From Microvirga zambiensis WSM3693 (lineage in GTDB: Bacteria > Pseudomonadota > Alphaproteobacteria > Rhizobiales > Beijerinckiaceae), in the NCBI RefSeq assembly GCF_016735695.1, contig NZ_JAERQD010000001.1, positions 248,001 to 312,000 of the forward strand: a stretch of 64,000 bases of DNA, read 5' to 3'. Below the pieces are notes generated by a model. That model saw nothing but the letters and a program-made list of their open reading frames with translations, was not told where the DNA came from and ran no database searches. The position numbers were made by a program, and so were the translations under genes. This document shows, piece by piece, positions 4,917-46,066 of this stretch (its first letter is position 1; the number at the start of each line of letters is the position of its first letter).

Positions 4917-4949
4917 GTCAATCGGAAGAGACTGGGCTAAAGTCGATCC

Positions 4950-5004
4950 TGTTCCTCCCCTGTCAACTCAGCGCCCCGGTCCAACCTGGGCGCTTTTTCT
5001 TTTG
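4950..5004 (+). ncRNA. Candidate small regulatory RNA
   Basis: A short interval between a possible activator-dependent promoter (site 3b, -10 at 4936-4941) and a strong intrinsic terminator (4970-5003), with no ORF. The predicted ~55-nt transcript carries an unpaired TTCCTCCCC segment, an anti-Shine-Dalgarno motif common in alphaproteobacterial sRNAs that block translation. The transcript start is inferred, not seen. Confidence 0.4.
4970..5003 (+). terminator. Rho-independent terminator
   Basis: AGCGCCC at 4970-4976 pairs with GGGCGCT at 4988-4994 and is followed by TTTTCTTTT. It has no plus-strand protein gene upstream to serve, which points to the sRNA candidate. Confidence 0.75.
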
Positions 5005-37758: not shown

Positions 37759-38700
37759 ATGAAGGCGTTATTGGGTGGTTTGGCCGTGTTGGCCCTGGCG
37801 GTCGGGTCCGCCTCGGCGCAGGAGACGAAGGTGACAGTCGGCATCTCGGGCTGGACGGGCTTTGCGCCCCTCACGCTCGCGAAGGAAGCCGGCATCTTCA
37901 AGAAGAACGGCCTCGACGTGACGATCAAGAAGGTGCCGCAGGCGAGCCGCCACCTCGCGATCCAGTCCGGCGACATCCAATGCGCCGCCACCACGGTGGA
38001 GACTTGGGTCGTATGGAATGCCAACGGCGTTCCCACCAAGCAGATCTTCCAGCTCGACAAGAGCTACGGCGCCGACGGCATGGTGGTGAGGAACGACGTC
38101 GCTTCGATCAAGGACATCAAGGGCAAGCAGGTGGCGGCCTCCGCGCCAGGCACCTCGCCCTATTTCGCCCTCGCCTGGATGCTGAAGAAGAACGGCCTTT
38201 CCGTGAAGGACGTGACCGTGGTCAACATGGAGCCAGGCCCCGCCGCCCAGGCCTTCATCGCCGGCCAGAACGACGTCGCCATGACCTACGAGCCGTATCT
38301 CTCTTCCGTGCGCGCGGCGCCGCAATCCGGCAAGATCATCGCCACGACTCTCGATTACCCGATGGTGATGGACACCTTCGGCTGCACGCCGAAATTCCTC
38401 GCCGACAATCCGAAGGCAGCGAAAGCGCTCGCCGACAGCTATTTCGAAGCCCTCGAGATGATCGCCAAGGATCAGGCCAAGGCCTACGAGATCATGGGCG
38501 CCGACGTGAAGCAGACTGGCGAGGCCTTCGGCAAGTCGGCGCAGTTCCTGCGCTGGCAGGACCGCGAGGCGAACAAGAAATTCTTCGCCGGCGAGTTCAA
38601 GACCTTCTCGGCGGAAGCGGCCGACCTGCTGCTCGAGGCGGGCATCATCAAGCAGAAGCCGGACATGGACGCGCTGGCGGATACCAGCTTCATCCAGTAA
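37759..38700 (+). CDS. ABC transporter substrate-binding protein (NitT/TauT type)
   Basis: 313 residues with a clear signal peptide (MKALLGGLAVLALAVGSASA). Periplasmic binding fold of the nitrate/taurine/thiamine-precursor class (SGWTGFAPLTLAKEAGIFKK; AATTVETWVVW; SAPGTSPYFALAWML). The HutC-like box upstream and the position after hutD point to histidine, urocanate or a related compound as ligand (inference). ATG at 37759 is behind GGAGG. Confidence 0.88.
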   Translation: MKALLGGLAVLALAVGSASAQETKVTVGISGWTGFAPLTLAKEAGIFKKNGLDVTIKKVPQASRHLAIQSGDIQCAATTVETWVVWNANGVPTKQIFQLDKSYGADGMVVRNDVASIKDIKGKQVAASAPGTSPYFALAWMLKKNGLSVKDVTVVNMEPGPAAQAFIAGQNDVAMTYEPYLSSVRAAPQSGKIIATTLDYPMVMDTFGCTPKFLADNPKAAKALADSYFEALEMIAKDQAKAYEIMGADVKQTGEAFGKSAQFLRWQDREANKKFFAGEFKTFSAEAADLLLEAGIIKQKPDMDALADTSFIQ

Positions 38701-38712
38701 CGATCTTGCCGC

Positions 38713-38791
38713 GGCAATGGCCTGCCTCCACGCAGGCCATTGCCGTATCCTTTCCTCATCGAGGCCGTTCGGACGAGCAGGTCCGAACGGC
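38713..38791 (+). other. Two strong intercistronic hairpins between binding protein and permease genes
   Basis: Hairpin 1: 13-bp arms 38713-38725 and 38732-38744, loop CTCCAC. Hairpin 2: 11-bp arms 38764-38774 and 38781-38791, loop GAGCAG. No poly-T follows either. They probably protect or process the mRNA so that the binding protein is made in excess. Confidence 0.6.
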
Positions 38792-38805
38792 AGAGCAGAT
38801 CCTTC

Positions 38806-39582
38806 ATGCCTCGTCCTCTCGAACCCGTCAGCCAGGGCACGCGCGTCACGCTCGGCATCTCATTCTTCATCCTGTTCTTCGCGGCATGGGCCTTCGCGAC
38901 GCTGGGCGGCTTCGTCTCGCGCACCTTCCTCGCCGATCCGATCACCATGGTGCAGGACGGCTGGCTGCTGCTCACCCGCTTCGGCTTCATGGGCGATATC
39001 GGCATCACGGTCTGGCGCGTCGTCGGCGGCTTCATCATAGCGGCGCTTATTGCCGTGCCGCTCGGCATCATGATGGGGGCGTATAAATCCTTCGAGGCCT
39101 TCCTCGAGCCCTTCGTATCGTTTGCGCGCTACCTGCCCGCCTCCGCCTTCGTGCCGCTGCTCATCCTATGGGCCGGCATCGGAGAGATGCAGAAGCTCCT
39201 CGTGATCTTCATCGGATCGGTTTTCCAGATCATCCTGATGGTGGCGGTGGCTGTGGGCAACACGCGCCGCGACCTGGTCGAGGCCGCCTACACGCTCGGC
39301 TCGAGCGATCGAGGCGTGGTGCAGCGCGTGCTCATCCCCGCGAACGCGCCGGAGATCGCGGAAATCCTGCGGCTCGTGCTCGGCTGGGCCTGGACCTACG
39401 TGATCGTCGCCGAACTCATCGGCTCGTCTTCCGGTATCGGCCACATGATCATCGACAGCCAGGCGCTGCTCGCGACGGGACAAATGATCTTCGGCATCAT
39501 CGTGATCGGCATCATCGGCCTGATTTCCGATTTCCTGTTCAAGGCCCTCAACCGCAAGCTCTTTGCCTGGAGGCTCGCATGA
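38806..39582 (+). CDS. ABC transporter permease (NitT/TauT type)
   Basis: 258 residues, about six membrane helices. The EAA loop that contacts the ATPase is seen as VEAAYTLGSSDRGVVQRVLIP. Start ATG at 38806 lies just after the second hairpin; an ATG at 38740 would place the hairpin in coding sequence. Overlaps the ATPase gene by ATGA. Confidence 0.88.
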   Translation: MPRPLEPVSQGTRVTLGISFFILFFAAWAFATLGGFVSRTFLADPITMVQDGWLLLTRFGFMGDIGITVWRVVGGFIIAALIAVPLGIMMGAYKSFEAFLEPFVSFARYLPASAFVPLLILWAGIGEMQKLLVIFIGSVFQIILMVAVAVGNTRRDLVEAAYTLGSSDRGVVQRVLIPANAPEIAEILRLVLGWAWTYVIVAELIGSSSGIGHMIIDSQALLATGQMIFGIIVIGIIGLISDFLFKALNRKLFAWRLA

Positions 39583-40370
39583 CCGGCACGATCCTCCAGA
39601 TCGACAACGTCTCCCGCGTGTTTCCGGGCGTGCGCGGCGGCGCGCCCGTGCGTGCGCTCGAGCCCACGAACCTGCAGGTGGCGCAGAACGATTTCATCAC
39701 CATCCTCGGCCCGTCCGGCTGCGGAAAGTCTACGCTCCTGCGCATCGTCGCCGGCCTCGACCGCCCAAGCGGCGGGCGCGTACTGCTCAACAATCGCGAG
39801 ATCAAGGGACCGGGTGCCGATCGCGGCATGGTGTTCCAGTCCTACACGCTGTTTCCCTGGCTCACGATTGGCGAGAACATCGCCTACGGCCTGCGCGAGA
39901 AGGGCGTGCCGAAGGCGCAGCGCCAGGACATCGTCGCCTCCTATACGGAGAAGGTGGGCCTGCGCGGCTTCGAGAACCATTATCCGAAGCAGCTTTCCGG
40001 CGGCATGCAGCAGCGCACGGCCATTGCCCGCGCGCTCGCCAATGATCCCGAGATCCTGCTTCTCGACGAGCCCTTCGGCGCCCTCGACAACCAGACCCGC
40101 GGCCTGATGCAGGAGCTGCTGCTCGGCATCTGGGAGCGCGAGCAGAAGACCGTGCTCTTCGTCACCCATGACATCGAGGAAGCGATCTTCCTCGCCTCCC
40201 GCGTCATCGTCATGTCCGCCCGCCCCGGCCGCATCAAGGCCGACATCCCCGTCGACCTGCCGCATCCGCGCCACTACACCATGAAGACGACGCCGGAATT
40301 CTCCGCCCTGAAGGCGCAGCTGACGGAAGAGATTCGCGTCGAGGCGATGCAGGCGGAAGGCGTGCATTGA
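39579..40370 (+). CDS. ABC transporter ATPase (NitT/TauT type)
   Basis: 263 residues. Walker A GPSGCGKST, Q-loop VFQSYTLFPW, signature LSGGMQQRTAIARAL, Walker B ILLLDEPFGALD, H-loop VTHDIEEA. Energises the permease encoded upstream. Start overlaps the permease stop. Confidence 0.93.
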   Translation: MTGTILQIDNVSRVFPGVRGGAPVRALEPTNLQVAQNDFITILGPSGCGKSTLLRIVAGLDRPSGGRVLLNNREIKGPGADRGMVFQSYTLFPWLTIGENIAYGLREKGVPKAQRQDIVASYTEKVGLRGFENHYPKQLSGGMQQRTAIARALANDPEILLLDEPFGALDNQTRGLMQELLLGIWEREQKTVLFVTHDIEEAIFLASRVIVMSARPGRIKADIPVDLPHPRHYTMKTTPEFSALKAQLTEEIRVEAMQAEGVH

Positions 40371-40601
40371 GCTGATCAGCGGTCGCAGCAAGGCCTGAGC
40401 ACCGCGTGATGCTTCGCGTCCTGTCGCCGTCCAAGCCAACCGGCAGATCAGCCTGACCGCGCAAACATCATCCCGAGCGGCGCGCGAGCGCTGCCGGTGT
40501 CCGTCTTGACCTGCACCTGGACCCCACCCAGACCTCTCGTTGCGGAAACACAGACAAAGCCGATACCTCGAATTTTCTAACGAGATAACGTTATTTTTGT
40601 C

Positions 40602-40630
40602 TTGAAGTGACTAAGTTGGTCACTTATACA
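40602..40630 (+). promoter_or_regulatory. Promoter of the TnpB-like/PspA operon with internal dyad
   Basis: TTGAAG (40602-40607), 17-bp spacer, TATACA (40625-40630). The -10 ends 7 nt before the ATG at 40638, so the transcript would be leaderless. A 7-bp inverted repeat AAGTGAC (40605-40611) / GTCACTT (40619-40625) spans the spacer and could bind a regulator. The rest of 40371-40601 holds nothing I can name. Confidence 0.6.
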
Positions 40631-40637
40631 TTGTTAC

Positions 40638-41795
40638 ATGAAATTCAGGGCATCAGCTCCGTCGTCCAGTCTCCGCTACGTCCTCTACCTCCGACCGGCG
40701 GATCAGGAGGCCATTGCCGATACCCTGGTGCAATACGCCTCCATGATGGTCCTGTTGGAGGAGGTTGCGTCCCGGGAGGGCATCAAATCCGACATCGTTC
40801 GGCTGCAGAGGCTTTCCTACGAGCGCATCCGGTCGGAGACGCAGCTTCCCGCACAGATGGTTCTCTTGGGGATCCGCGATTTCGCCGCCCAGCGCAGCTG
40901 GGGAGAAGACCTGCCCGGCATCCCGCTCGATGAGAAGCTCTATGCCATCAAGGGGCCGATGACGCTGACGCTATCGACCGTTCAGGGACGCGTCACCGTG
41001 CATTACGACGTCGCCGGCTACCTGGAGGGCTGGCGCGGGTCGGCCCCCGCCCGCCTCGTTCGCAGCGATGCAGGCTTCGAGATCGTCATCGGGGTCAAAC
41101 CATTCATTCGTCCACAAGAGGAGAAGTCGATGGCTTACGAAGGCATTCTATCCCGTGTCGGCCGTCTGGTCGCGGGTTTCGCACATGCAGCGGTCGACAT
41201 GGCCGAGCAGAAGGATCCCGCCGCCCTCGTCGAGCAGGCGATCCGGGAGATCGACCGTGAAGCCGAAGAGGCCCGCGCCGCGCTCGGCAAGCATACGGCC
41301 GAACAGCACAGGCTCGAGAACCGTGCCCGCGAGCTGGATACGGAACAGCTTTCCCTTTCCGGCAAGATCGCAACCGCGCTGCAGCAGGGGCGTGAGGATC
41401 TCGCAAAGGCGGGGATCGGGCGGCAGATCGATATCGAGGCGCAGATAGCGGCCCTGCAGGTTGCCGTTGCCGACGTCAACGAGCGCATCGAAGAGGCTCA
41501 AGGAGCCGTTCAGGCCGTCATCGCCGCGCGCCGCGAGGGCGAGGCGCGGCTTGCGGAACTGAAGCGGTCTCTGGCCAGCGAGCAGGCAGCGACATCGTCA
41601 CATGCCGGCGCTGCTCGCACGGCATCGCCTGCGGACAAGAGCCTCCGCTCCCTGGAAGCGATATCCCGCGTGACCGGCGTCCCATCCTCGGACGGCCATC
41701 CCCACGCTTCGCAGATGAACGAACTGGAACGGCTGCACAGGGACCGGACCGTCGAGGAGCGTCTTGCCGCATTCAAGGCCAAGACCCGGGAATAA
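40638..41795 (+). CDS. TnpB-like N-terminal domain fused to PspA/IM30
   Basis: 385 residues. Residues ~12-155 follow the order of a TnpB/OrfB N-terminal half: RYVLYLRPADQEAIADTL, VRLQRLSYERIRSETQLPAQ, then the beta-rich part IPLDEKLYAIKG, GRVTVHYDVAGYLEGW and ARLVRSDAGFEIVIGVKP. The TnpB RuvC nuclease that should come next is absent; instead, residues 165-385 are a PspA/IM30 coiled-coil (GILSRVGRLVAGFAHAAVD, long Glu/Arg/Ala helices). PspA (ESCRT-III-like) protects stressed inner membranes. ATG at 40638 seems leaderless. An internal ATG at 41130 follows AGAGGAG and could yield PspA alone. First gene of an operon with YqiJ-like and flotillin genes. The TnpB reading is by eye and needs a profile search. 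Confidence 0.75.
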   Translation: MKFRASAPSSSLRYVLYLRPADQEAIADTLVQYASMMVLLEEVASREGIKSDIVRLQRLSYERIRSETQLPAQMVLLGIRDFAAQRSWGEDLPGIPLDEKLYAIKGPMTLTLSTVQGRVTVHYDVAGYLEGWRGSAPARLVRSDAGFEIVIGVKPFIRPQEEKSMAYEGILSRVGRLVAGFAHAAVDMAEQKDPAALVEQAIREIDREAEEARAALGKHTAEQHRLENRARELDTEQLSLSGKIATALQQGREDLAKAGIGRQIDIEAQIAALQVAVADVNERIEEAQGAVQAVIAARREGEARLAELKRSLASEQAATSSHAGAARTASPADKSLRSLEAISRVTGVPSSDGHPHASQMNELERLHRDRTVEERLAAFKAKTRE

Positions 41796-41807
41796 ACGGA
41801 GCGTTCC

Positions 41808-42464
41808 ATGGACGTCCTGCTGTCAGGAAGCTACCAGCCCTTCATCGTTGCCGGTCTCGTCATGACGTGTCTTGTCGCGATCGAGACGATATCGCTGGTC
41901 GCCGGCTTTTCCTTGAGCCACTTCATCGATCAGAGTTTCGAGTCCGAAACCTTCGGCGGGTACCACGCCGACACGGGCGAGACCGGATTCATCGGCGGCC
42001 TGATGGGCTGGATCAATGCGGGCCGGGTTCCACTGCTGATCGTCATCATCACGTGGCTTGCGGCTTTTGCCGCCGCGGGCTTCATGCTTCAAACGCTTGC
42101 CGCAAGCCTCTTGGCTCCCCTGCCCGTCGCGGTGGCCGGCTTTATCGCATTCGGCCTCGCCGCTCCCGCGACGCGATTCACGACACGCCTGGTGTCCCGC
42201 ATCGTTCCGCGCGATGAAACCTATGTGGTGTCCGATGCCGACCTGATCGGCCGTGTTGCGGAGGTCACCCTGGGACCGCTCGACCGAGGCCCTGCAGGCC
42301 GCGTGAAGGTTCGTGACACCCATGGGAACTGGCACTTTCCCATGGCCAAACTGGCCGACGGGCACGATCCCATCCCGGTCGGAGCCCAGGCTCTTCTCGT
42401 CGAGAGAAACGGAACGACGTTCCTGGTCATCCCAGCGCCCGACGACCTCAAGACAATCACCTAG
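41808..42464 (+). CDS. YqiJ/NfeD-like membrane protein
   Basis: 218 residues: three or four membrane helices in the first ~125 residues, then a C-terminal OB-fold (~135-212: DADLIGRVAEVTLGPLDRGPAGRVKVRD...GAQALLVERNGTTFLVIPAP), the layout of YqiJ/DUF1449 and NfeD proteins that pair with flotillins. ATG at 41808 is behind GGAG, 12 nt after the PspA gene. Confidence 0.8.
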   Translation: MDVLLSGSYQPFIVAGLVMTCLVAIETISLVAGFSLSHFIDQSFESETFGGYHADTGETGFIGGLMGWINAGRVPLLIVIITWLAAFAAAGFMLQTLAASLLAPLPVAVAGFIAFGLAAPATRFTTRLVSRIVPRDETYVVSDADLIGRVAEVTLGPLDRGPAGRVKVRDTHGNWHFPMAKLADGHDPIPVGAQALLVERNGTTFLVIPAPDDLKTIT

Positions 42465-42488
42465 AACAGATCTTCCGGAGAACCCACC

Positions 42489-44195
42489 ATGCTCAATGGC
42501 ATCATCATCCCGGTCGCCCTCAGCCTCCTTGCCATCCTCGGCATCGGCGTGGTGGTCGGCATCCTCTACAAGCGCTCGACCCGCGACCAAGCCTATGTTC
42601 GCACCGGCCTCGGCGGCAAGAAAGTGGTGCTCGACGGCGGCTCCGTCGTTCTCCCCGTCTTTCACTCCAGCGCCTGGGTCAATCTCAACACCCTGCGGCT
42701 CGAGGTTCGCCGCGGCGAAGGCGATGCGCTGATCACGCGGGATCGCATGCGGGTCGATATCGGAGCCGAGTTCTATGTGAGAGTGCGCCCGGAAGCCGAT
42801 TCCATCGCGCTTGCGGCCCAGACCCTCGGCGACCGCACGAACAATGCCGATGCTCTGCGTCAGCTGATCGAAGCGAAATTCGTCGACGCGCTCAGGTCGG
42901 TGGCAGCAACCATGTCGCTGAACGATCTCCAGGAGAAGCGCACGGAGTTCGTGAAAGCCGTGCAGGAGACGGTTGCAGCCGATCTCACCTCCAACGGCCT
43001 CGAGCTCGAAAGCGTCTCGCTGACGCGGCTCGACCAGACCGACATCAAGCATTTCAACCCGAACAACAGCTTCGATGCGGAAGGTCTGGCGACCCTTACG
43101 AAGATCACCGAGCAGCGCAAGAAGGAGCGCAACGAGGTCGTCCGCGATACGGAAGTCGCCATCGCAGAGAAGGATCGCGAGGCGCTTCAGCGCAAGCTCG
43201 AGATCGATCGAGCCTCGAAGGAAGCGGAACTCGCCCAGCAGCGCGATATCGCCAATGCCACGTCCAAGACCCGCGCCGAGCAGGCTGAAAAGGAAGCAGC
43301 GGCGCGCCAGGCGGAGGAAACCGCAAGGATCGCCTCCGAGCTCGCCATTGCCGAGCGCGAGGCGGAAGCCAAGCGCATCAAGGAGAGCGCCAACATCGTG
43401 GCAAGCCGCGCCGTTCAGCAATCCGAGCTGGAGGCGAGACGCGACGTGCAGATCGTCGCGCAGGAGAGCGCCATCGCCGTTGCCAACAAGAGCCGCGAGG
43501 AATCGGAGGCGAAGGCCGCCGCCAAGGAGGCAGAAGCGCTCGCTGTCGCAGCCGACGAAAAGGTTGCAACGGCACGAGAGGTCGAGATTGCGGAGCGCCA
43601 GAAGCGCATCGCCGTCATCGCCGCGCAGCAGGATGCCGAGACCGAGGCGACGAATGTGACCGTCGCGGCTCAGGCGGACAAGGACGCAGCCGAGGACAGG
43701 GCGCATGCCATCAAGACGATCGCGCTCGCGAACGCAGAAGCCGCCAAGATCGAAGCCGCAGGCATTCGCGAGAAAGGTGCCGCCCAGGCCGAGGCCGAGG
43801 CTGCGATGACGGAGGCCCGCAACAAGCTCTCTGCGGCCATCATCGAGTTTGAGCTCACCCGCGAGCGGATCCGCATCATTCCGGAGGCTCTGGCGGAGGC
43901 CGTGAAGCCCATCGAGAAGATCAAGGACATCCGTATTTTCGATACCGGCGGATTGGTCAACGGCAAGGCGAACTCCGAACGCGGAATTGGTCTTGGGGAT
44001 GGCTTGGCAGGGCAGCTCCTGTCGCTTCAGGCGAACAAGCCCATCCTGAACAGCATTCTCGCCGAAGCCGGATTTTCCGGCGGAAGCAACGCCCTCGACA
44101 CGCTCCTCGGATCCGTCACCGCAAAAGGGCAGATCAAGGTCGAAGATGTTACGGGGGCTCCCAATACCCTTGCTGCCTCCGGCAAGGCCCCTTGA
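42489..44195 (+). CDS. Flotillin (YqiK-like SPFH protein)
   Basis: 568 residues: N-terminal membrane helix (IIPVALSLLAILGIGVVVGI), SPFH/band 7 domain (~30-200, with ALRQLIEAKFVDALRSVAA), then a long Ala/Glu/Lys coiled-coil flotillin region (~215-460) and a Gly-rich tail. Flotillins build membrane microdomains; with the preceding YqiJ-like protein they make the standard bacterial pair, here in one operon with PspA, all acting at the inner membrane. Confidence 0.9.
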   Translation: MLNGIIIPVALSLLAILGIGVVVGILYKRSTRDQAYVRTGLGGKKVVLDGGSVVLPVFHSSAWVNLNTLRLEVRRGEGDALITRDRMRVDIGAEFYVRVRPEADSIALAAQTLGDRTNNADALRQLIEAKFVDALRSVAATMSLNDLQEKRTEFVKAVQETVAADLTSNGLELESVSLTRLDQTDIKHFNPNNSFDAEGLATLTKITEQRKKERNEVVRDTEVAIAEKDREALQRKLEIDRASKEAELAQQRDIANATSKTRAEQAEKEAAARQAEETARIASELAIAEREAEAKRIKESANIVASRAVQQSELEARRDVQIVAQESAIAVANKSREESEAKAAAKEAEALAVAADEKVATAREVEIAERQKRIAVIAAQQDAETEATNVTVAAQADKDAAEDRAHAIKTIALANAEAAKIEAAGIREKGAAQAEAEAAMTEARNKLSAAIIEFELTRERIRIIPEALAEAVKPIEKIKDIRIFDTGGLVNGKANSERGIGLGDGLAGQLLSLQANKPILNSILAEAGFSGGSNALDTLLGSVTAKGQIKVEDVTGAPNTLAASGKAP

Positions 44196-44204
44196 TTGAA
44201 TCGT

Positions 44205-44273
44205 CCCGGATCGTCCGTCACGGTACGGCGATCCGGGAATAACTTCTGCACCACCCGGATATCCTTCCGGGTG
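44205..44273 (+). terminator. Tandem hairpins after the flotillin operon
   Basis: CCCGGATCG (44205-44213) pairs with CGATCCGGG (44229-44237); then CACCCGGA (44252-44259) pairs with TCCGGGTG (44266-44273). No clear T-run, so termination is probable but not certain. Confidence 0.5.
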
Positions 44274-44334
44274 AATTGACCCGCTGCCCCGCTCGGGTGA
44301 CGCTTTTTGCCGTCTTTGTTGCGGGGTGGGCCCG

Positions 44335-45474
44335 ATGCTGAAGTACATGTTTGCCGGCGCCATGGTGCTTGCCGGCAGCCTCCCCGTTCGGGCTGAGATC
44401 GTCATCGATCAGGCCATGATCGCCGGCGGCGAATTGCGCGTTCTCGGGCGGTTGAGCAGGCCCCGTCAGGCGCCGGTATCCCTCGACGAGCAGTATCAGA
44501 CGAAATCGGAAGCCAATGGACGCTTCGCCTTTCGCATCATGTATCACCCCGCCACCTGCATCGTGACGATCCAGGCGGAGGAGGAGCAGCGGCAGGTCGT
44601 GATCGGATTTTGCGGGCAGCAGGGCCCGGCCGCTTCGGGCGATGCCCTGAAGGCCGCTGCGACGTCGCTCCCGCCCGGGCCGGCCGGCCCGCAGGGCCCT
44701 GCCGGGCCGAAAGGCGAGCCGGGTCCGCAGGGGATCGCTGGGCCTTCAGGCCTCCAGGGTGAGCGCGGCAGCGACGGGCCGCAGGGTCCGGCCGGTCCCA
44801 TGGGCCCGCAGGGGCCTGCAGGCCCTCCTGGACCTCCCGGCCTGACTGGGACCGCAGAAGCGCGCCTCGCATCCGATGGTCAGCCGGGTCCCGTCGGGCC
44901 GGCCGGTCCGACGGGTTCCGAAGGACCTCCCGGGCCTGCAGGGCCGCAGGGACCGCAAGGGTTGGCAGGACATCAGGGACCGCAAGGGCCGCAAGGACTT
45001 CCCGGGCCGCGCGGCGAACCGGGCCCGGCCGGACCTCCCGGCTCCATCGGACCGGCAGGCCCCGTGGGACTCGCCGGCACCATTGGCCCTATGGGCCCTC
45101 CCGGACCGCAGGGCGGTGCCGGTGATATCGGTCCGATCGGACCTCCGGGACCGATAGGGCCCATCGGCCCTGTCGGCCTCACTGGTCCCATCGGCCCGCA
45201 GGGCCCGGCTGGGCCTGAAGGAAAGGCGGGACCGGAAGGCAAGTCGGGACCGGAAGGAAAGTCGGGACTGGCCGGAACGATCCTGCGGGTCCTGGTGCAG
45301 GAATGTGCCGCGCAGGCGCGATGCATGGCCCGCTGCGACGAGGATGAATATCCCGTCAACGGCACATGCAACCGCGGCGACCGCTTCGACATGGACGAGG
45401 CGGGTGTCTACTGCTTCTCCACCAGCGAGAGCCCGACCGGCATGAAGGCACGGGCAATCTGCGCGAAGAAATAA
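44335..45474 (+). CDS. Secreted collagen-like protein
   Basis: 379 residues. Signal peptide (1-20), an N-terminal globular part with two Cys (~21-112), then ~65 Gly-x-y triplets (115-314) with one interruption at 173-181, very rich in GPxGPx, and a C-terminal domain of ~60 residues with six Cys (ECAAQARC...ARC...GTC...YC...IC). Bacterial collagen-like proteins form triple helices, stabilised without hydroxyproline, usually as surface or spore fibres. The terminal Cys-rich domain may trimerise or bind. ATG at 44335; GTG at 44326 is the in-frame alternative. Confidence 0.85.
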
Positions 45475-45488
45475 CCGGAAGTGCCACT

Positions 45489-45516
45489 CCGCATTCTGCT
45501 GAACGGCAGGATGCGG
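45489..45516. terminator. Hairpin between convergent genes
   Basis: CCGCATTCTGC / GCAGGATGCGG (11 bp, one G-T pair, loop TGAACG) between the collagen-like gene and the convergent 121-residue gene. A T-run is missing on both strands, so its terminator role is tentative. Confidence 0.45.
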
Positions 45517-45541
45517 TGACGGTTGCGAAACCCGCCGGGTC

Positions 45542-45907
45542 TCAGCTTTCGGTTGACGGCTTGCTTGTTTCCGCAGCGGGAGCAGCGGCCTCAGTTGCCT
45601 TCTCGGCGATCGCTTTCGGCTTGCGGACTGTCTTGCGCGATGATGATGTCCGTGGCGCCTTGCGAGGCGCCGGCTCCGCCTTTTCGACCGAAGCCTTCTT
45701 CTCCGCGCTTTCGCGATTGGCGGGGACATCCTCCTTGCGAAGCTGCGCCAGTCCCCTCTGCACGGCCTTCAGGAAGGCCTCTGCAGGCGATCCCGCCTCC
45801 TGGACAATGGTGAGCTTGGTCAGCGTGCGCTCCAGCTTCTCGCCACGCCGGATCGCTTTTGCAGTGAGAACGAGTTCATCGCCGACGACACGGGACTTCT
45901 TTGCCAT
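45542..45907 (-). CDS. Small Lys/Ala-rich protein of unknown function
   Basis: 121 residues: an ordered N-terminal half (MAKKSRVVGDELVLTAKAI; LTKLTIVQEAGSPAEAFLKA) and a low-complexity basic tail rich in Lys, Ala, Pro and Ser, resembling nucleic-acid-binding tails. ATG at 45907 is preceded by GAGAGAGCCC. No family recognised. Confidence 0.6.
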   Translation of the reverse strand: MAKKSRVVGDELVLTAKAIRRGEKLERTLTKLTIVQEAGSPAEAFLKAVQRGLAQLRKEDVPANRESAEKKASVEKAEPAPRKAPRTSSSRKTVRKPKAIAEKATEAAAPAAETSKPSTES

Positions 45908-46066
45908 AGGGCTCTCTCTTCGGTAAGGGCGCTCCCGGTTAGCAGCCTTGGCGCACCGAAAACAGTGAAGTTTCTATGACAGTTTGATGACACTCCGTCG
46001 GGGCGCAGGAATGCTGCCGTCAGGTCCGCGATCGCGCCGTCGCCTCGAGAGCAATCAATCCGCCGG

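Follow-up and report, generated by a model that had tools for sequence, protein, structure and literature searches.

Why does a gene for a PspA protein begin with what resembles the front half of a TnpB nuclease, and what would such a fusion do? The question is raised by a 64,000-nucleotide stretch of Microvirga zambiensis WSM3693 (contig NZ_JAERQD010000001.1, positions 248,001 to 312,000), referred to here as the window, in which an open reading frame at 40638-41795 (+) encodes a fusion protein of 385 amino acids in its long form. Domain, profile and homologue searches resolved this protein into a TnpB-type lobe and PspA, and the two-domain frame is present as the initial annotation described it. 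The PspA_IM30 domain occupies residues 169-335 (60 bits, cut-off 33.9; Pfam), and the protein falls under the cut-off of TIGR02977, the NCBIfam equivalog of phage-shock PspA (46.5 versus 242.95 bits). The lobe continues in frame into PspA with no RuvC between, and the Pfam families for RuvC and the zinc ribbon (PF01385 and PF07282) gave no match across all 385 amino acids. In this study, the kinship of the lobe with TnpB, the missing RuvC, the conserved fusion and gene order, the occurrence of an inverted repeat with the fusion and the match of residue 73 to that repeat were computed. The sequences suggest that the lobe is an RNA-free DNA-binding domain, derived from the TnpB region that recognises the transposon-associated motif (TAM), which likely represses its own operon from a 21-bp inverted repeat. 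Moreover, it is fairly probable that the fusion represents a new class of regulator, in which a REC-WED lobe freed of both RuvC and guide RNA was joined to PspA as a one-protein membrane-stress switch, with residue 73 setting the operator sequence.

Residues 1-164 alone had no Pfam match, and TIGR01765, the NCBIfam model of the TnpB N-terminal domain, matched them weakly (14.2 bits, E 0.033, under the cut-off of 47.25). Profile comparison was more decisive: 15 lobes aligned with 118 TnpB N-termini in hhalign at 97.3% (E 1.9e-11, 132 columns), and the lobe profile reached 98.7% (E 2.8e-16, 136 columns) with a more varied TnpB set, while a reversed profile gave 0.1%, 30 column shuffles at most 2.3% and the PspA part 0.5%. 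The TnpB match was to one subfamily, of the TIGR01765 type. The AlphaFold model of the lobe (predicted local distance difference test, 87) placed the TnpB-type region at residues ~10-153, with a strand at 10-17, helices at 20-47, 53-68 and 72-88, and WED strands at 95-153, and the top 45 solved-structure rows retrieved with this model in Foldseek were all TnpB, Fanzor, TranC or Cas12. The profile matches and the predicted fold thus agree on the relationship with TnpB that had been read from the letters, and both of these comparisons, which the initial annotation had proposed, led to a REC-WED fold of the TnpB/Cas12 type. Judged by profile and model, the stretch of residues ~10-153 is a REC-WED lobe of the TnpB type that lacks RuvC; residues 1-153 are encoded at 40638-41096 (+). 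This lobe is common to the fusion protein, TIGR01765-type TnpB (P0054 of Mariprofundus) and ISDra2 TnpB. Unlike TnpB of IS200/IS605, however, the fusion protein has neither RuvC nor zinc ribbon, its lobe is near neutral in charge, and it is joined to PspA. A TnpB N-terminal lobe standing alone was observed on Thermobacillus composti plasmid pTHECO01, where a 176-amino-acid hypothetical protein (L098:2504-3034, +; TIGR01765 37.1 bits, E 2.3e-9, under the cut-off of 47.25) is followed by an S-layer-homology gene; it is perhaps a second, independent RuvC-less TnpB lobe.

The fusion is real and conserved, as had been claimed. A search with residues 1-164, in which only proteins of ~212-674 amino acids could be found, matched 53 proteins at E<=1 (the fusion protein itself included), and the two-domain layout is not due to chance because all 53 also carried PF04012. 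Among 101 relatives, 10 carried the lobe (E<=0.01, one marginal), and a search of 200 yielded 14 (E<=0.1, two marginal). By rank, it turned up in 24 of 397 genomes sampled from the order, 6 of 385 from the class and 30 of 397 from the family; the sets overlap. Its distribution is patchy, within Alphaproteobacteria and ahead of YqiJ and flotillin genes. The order lobe-PspA-YqiJ-flotillin was kept in 12 of 14 loci; of the other two, L079 ends at a contig edge before the lobe and L080 is unfused. Twelve plasmid records had a lobe match, 11 of them from Rhizobium, Agrobacterium, Shinella and Bosea and the twelfth from Thermobacillus, and the fusion, an OB-fold protein and flotillin followed one another in 5 of 5 plasmid regions inspected. 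The large-plasmid fusion operons (L099-L103 and hits H1-H11) appeared as a three-gene cassette in unrelated surroundings. No transposase was seen within the conserved three-gene order of the fusion loci, no search having been aimed at element ends, and viral contigs yielded one short lobe match of 29 residues (L097).

Selection on the retained frame, which the initial annotation had suggested, was borne out by ratios of nonsynonymous to synonymous substitution (dN/dS) of 0.07-0.19 for the lobe and 0.04-0.11 for the PspA part (11 pairs), which places the lobe under purifying selection. A chance fusion with a transposon remnant was ruled out by the lobe ratios and by conservation down to <=40% identity. 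Among 97 short-protein profile matches, many of them without contig data, 12 proteins were read and no clear case of a stand-alone lobe was found: six extend into PspA (P0181, P0189, P0199, P0229, P0241 and P0260) and six end otherwise (P0208, P0220, P0226, P0259, P0267 and P0269). In P0220, P0226, P0259 and others, the frame is lost before PspA, and these may be decaying or misassembled copies.

The first clue to function lies directly 5' of the gene. A predicted promoter TTGAAG-17-TATACA (the best -35/-10 pair; -35 at 40602-40607, -10 at 40625-40630, both +) ends 7 nt before the ATG at 40638, and a predicted operator found by the repeat scan, the inverted repeat AAGTGAC-TAAGTTG-GTCACTT (7-7-7; 40605-40625), lies between and over both boxes. 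The exact repeat is single in the 7.36-Mb genome. Sixty-three fusion loci were compared, of which the first 40 (39 by scan, L102 added by hand) were followed by 23 with the rule already fixed; many of the 23 are kin of earlier ones, and the repeat counts are not independent. The repeat stood at the same place in 62 of the 63 at a score of <=2 (42 at 0, 7 at 1 and 13 at 2), and the remaining locus, L132, was doubtful at score 3. In the final scan the outer letters were fixed, and under the same rule 2 of 949 random stretches scored <=2 with 30 more at 3, and 2 of 630 shuffled stretches scored <=2. A looser scan chose other repeats in 10 of 37 loci (L013, L085, L107, L116, L118-L122 and the second copy of L017). 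All seven arm pairs matched in 25 of the first 40 loci, with changes at positions 3, 4 and 5 occurring in matched pairs.

In most loci the repeat lies 10-12 nt before the start codon, and several of the 23 later loci have GTG in place of ATG at that distance. Promoter boxes of at least 8/12 were present in 35 of 40 loci versus 18 of 800 control stretches, the spacer was 17 bp in 35 of 40, and in the 39 of 40 loci where the distance was measured, 6-8 nt separated the end of the -10 element from the ATG; L017, with two repeat copies, has its start distance missing in this promoter count and misplaced in the internal-start count below. A Shine-Dalgarno sequence before the long start was found in 0 of 39 loci. 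From the position of the -10 element near the ATG and the lack of a Shine-Dalgarno sequence, we infer a transcription start close to the A of the 40638 ATG, synthesis of the long form from a leaderless mRNA, and a role for the repeat as a DNA operator in competition with RNA polymerase. In Rhizobium sp. Root1203, the promoter and operator are partly duplicated upstream of the fusion gene (L017:4806-4826 and 4948-4968).

The second clue is that one residue of the lobe follows one base pair of the repeat. Where residue 73 is Arg, arm position 5 is C on both arms in 46 of 50 loci and T on one arm in the other 4; where it is Gln, the position is G on both arms in 11 of 13, the other two being G/T and T/T. 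Across the 63 fusion loci, R73 never occurred with G and Q73 never with C, and column 73 alone, of 142 well-filled lobe columns, fully separated G from C loci. In the window, the codon of Q73 lies at 40854-40856 (+) and helix 72-88, which begins in the region of residue 73 in the predicted model, at 40851-40901 (+). In the profile alignments Q73 falls on Q65 of the TnpB subfamily and Q65 on F77 of ISDra2 (97.0%, E 8.2e-11 for the latter alignment), so that through this intermediate family the helix is aligned with the TAM-reading helix of ISDra2 TnpB. Sections of the ISDra2 TnpB structural study report that F77, with K76 and Q80, contacts the TAM duplex and that F77A lowers activity (PMC10097598). 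The promoter repeat and its coupling to residue 73 point to a reading of double-stranded DNA by what was the TAM-reading part of TnpB.

The gene also appears to encode a second product. Codon 165 is an ATG (41130) with its own Shine-Dalgarno sequence, AGGAG at 41119-41123 (+), 6 nt upstream, and the PspA/IM30 part with the probable short form of 221 amino acids spans 41130-41795 (+). This ATG was kept in 39 of 39 loci and the Shine-Dalgarno core in 36 of 39, versus 10.2% of background codons (1454/14322), and the amino acids encoded there vary although the core is kept. The cut locus L036 was left out of this count, and an internal Met with a Shine-Dalgarno sequence was preferred where several lay close together, which slightly favours the Shine-Dalgarno figure. 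A short PspA form is thus probably also made from the internal start, and the gene would yield two proteins, the long one binding DNA and the short one consisting of PspA. The operon with YqiJ-like and flotillin genes named in the initial annotation was confirmed by Pfam, with a YqiJ-family membrane protein at 41808-42464 (+; YqiJ_N and YqiJ_OB, N-domain 72.1 bits, cut-off 23) and a flotillin at 42489-44195 (+; Band_7 and Flot, 86.1 bits, cut-off 27). Behind the flotillin gene, a collagen-like protein with many Gly-Pro-X repeats is encoded at 44326-45474 (+).

The following mechanism is proposed. Translation would give the long form from the leaderless mRNA and, at the internal start, the short PspA. 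The PspA coiled coil would pair two lobes so that they bind the two repeat arms, and since the repeat reaches into both promoter boxes, their binding would shut out RNA polymerase. Long-form molecules on the repeat would thereby hold the PspA-YqiJ-flotillin operon down. A stressed membrane would draw PspA and pull the long form off the DNA, and its release would allow more PspA, YqiJ and flotillin to be made.

The most serious competitor, although unlikely, is that PspA uses the lobe as a structural or protein-binding module, for example to guide polymer assembly or to hold YqiJ or flotillin, and that the repeat is the operator of another host regulator. The fusion partner of the lobe acts at the membrane, and the lobe itself is close to neutral, with a net charge of -1 to +5 (median +1) in the 15 lobes versus +4 to +20 (median +11) in the 118 TnpB N-termini. 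In addition, PspA partners in related operons vary, CesT/Tir-like proteins being an example given in a portion of a PspA survey (PMC11237479). Against this reading, the repeat keeps company with the lobe. Eight unfused loci of the same operon type (L018-L024 and L080) all have another gene, of 166-176 amino acids, before PspA, YqiJ and flotillin, and other promoter repeats; under the same rule they scored 4-6, and the repeat was found in 0 of 8 versus 62 of 63 fusion loci. No locus was seen to carry both the lobe and this gene. Furthermore, the pairing of repeat and lobe spans families as well as chromosomes and plasmids, and the central base pair of the repeat tracks one residue of the lobe. 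The structural domain reused with no RNA role, which the initial annotation had also offered, persists as this unlikely competitor. The 166-176-amino-acid gene, which had no Pfam match, occurs in this position across several phyla and has promoter repeats of its own (e.g., L018:4514-5014, L019:4502-5020, L022:4501-4998 and L024:2083-2610).

It is less probable still that binding of the lobe to the repeat turns the promoter on or serves only to organise DNA, so that membrane binding by PspA lowers expression. MerR-type activators can use a repeat within the promoter spacer; however, MerR promoters have overlong spacers, and the spacer here is already 17 bp in most loci.

A retained RNA function, in which the lobe still binds guide-like or other RNA through its WED part to direct PspA or to sense for it, is very improbable. 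Sections of the ISDra2 TnpB study describe WED and REC touching guide RNA, heteroduplex and DNA, with WED and RuvC carrying the guide RNA scaffold and a positively charged REC/RuvC channel enclosing the heteroduplex (PMC10097598). In the fusion protein, however, RuvC, which contacts much of that scaffold, is missing, and the charge has been lost. Searches of the Microvirga genome with PF01385 or TIGR01765 found no TnpB, and TIGR01765 gave 0 matches over 150 genomes of the phylum. An Rfam scan over 38000-46000, which would miss an undescribed RNA, returned nothing of note; one sub-threshold match to an unrelated family lay away from the fusion locus. The RNA-binding or RNA-sensing role raised in the initial annotation was therefore not upheld. 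The least plausible reading, that the transcribed repeat folds into a hairpin near the mRNA 5' end through which the lobe controls translation, draws on the 7-bp stem and 7-nt loop so near the start and on changed arms being matched by the other arm as expected in RNA, but the predicted -35 and -10 elements at its two ends, the latter close to the ATG, should put the repeat upstream of the transcript, and no Shine-Dalgarno sequence is there to hide.

Several points weigh against a DNA-reading repressor lobe, which remains the preferred interpretation. With respect to kinship, the best Foldseek E value for the lobe was 0.011, the direct profile match to ISDra2-like TnpBs was only 1.9%, the link running through TIGR01765-type TnpBs, and sequence searches of PDB with one protein or with 15 lobes returned no TnpB match. 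The near-neutral charge of the lobe is unlike that of most DNA-binding domains, and the model of the full protein (predicted template modelling score, 0.42) does not fix the orientation of the lobe relative to PspA. With respect to the operator, L132 has a poor repeat and also no clear start, and at <=2 mismatches the genome has 7 sites versus 4 for a backwards control pattern, which neither supports nor opposes a wider regulon. The Q73 locus L131 has T/T rather than G/G, and column 94 separates the G and C loci nearly as well as column 73 (0.99). The match of residue 73 to the operator amounts to two changes per trait on the best tree and one on well-supported branches; because of these few changes it hints strongly at a link but proves nothing statistically, and a statistical claim drawn from it was dropped. 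Finally, the start of the displaced 166-176-amino-acid gene resembles ribbon-helix-helix proteins in its motifs, and it may be a regulator of that class; searches of Pfam, NCBIfam and PDB gave no support for this label.

No description of a TnpB-PspA fusion was found within the open-access papers covered, in agreement with the initial annotation, which knew of none. By analogy, the nearest idea is TldR, described in part of its report as TnpB-like nuclease-dead repressors with a mutated RuvC and guide RNA (PMC13418256). Like the predicted fusion lobe, TldR is a TnpB descendant working as a transcription factor; however, TldR keeps the mutated RuvC and guide RNA, whereas the fusion protein is without RuvC and its target is apparently a palindromic operator read RNA-free. 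PspA_IM30 is common to the fusion and the PspA/IM30 phage-shock proteins, and the fusion differs from them by its N-terminal TnpB-type lobe. Passages of the PspA survey state that more than 98% of PspA homologues are little varied and name as fusions tandem PspA repeats, NlpC/P60 and PspAA (PMC11237479). The CesT/Tir-PspA-flotillin-YqiJ operons in the same passages share PspA, the YqiJ-like protein and flotillin with the present operon, in which the lobe replaces the upstream partner.

If the proposed reading is true, the TnpB/Cas12 enzymes are, besides RNA-guided systems, also the source of a DNA-binding domain that recognises a fixed operator without RNA, and the TAM-reading step would be a module available to evolution on its own. 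The rule relating residue 73 to one base pair offers a ready test of specificity. The classical phage-shock system needs a separate activator, PspF; the fusion would instead connect membrane and promoter directly through PspA, within a single protein. The way in which PspA reports membrane damage to genes would then become testable with one protein and one promoter.
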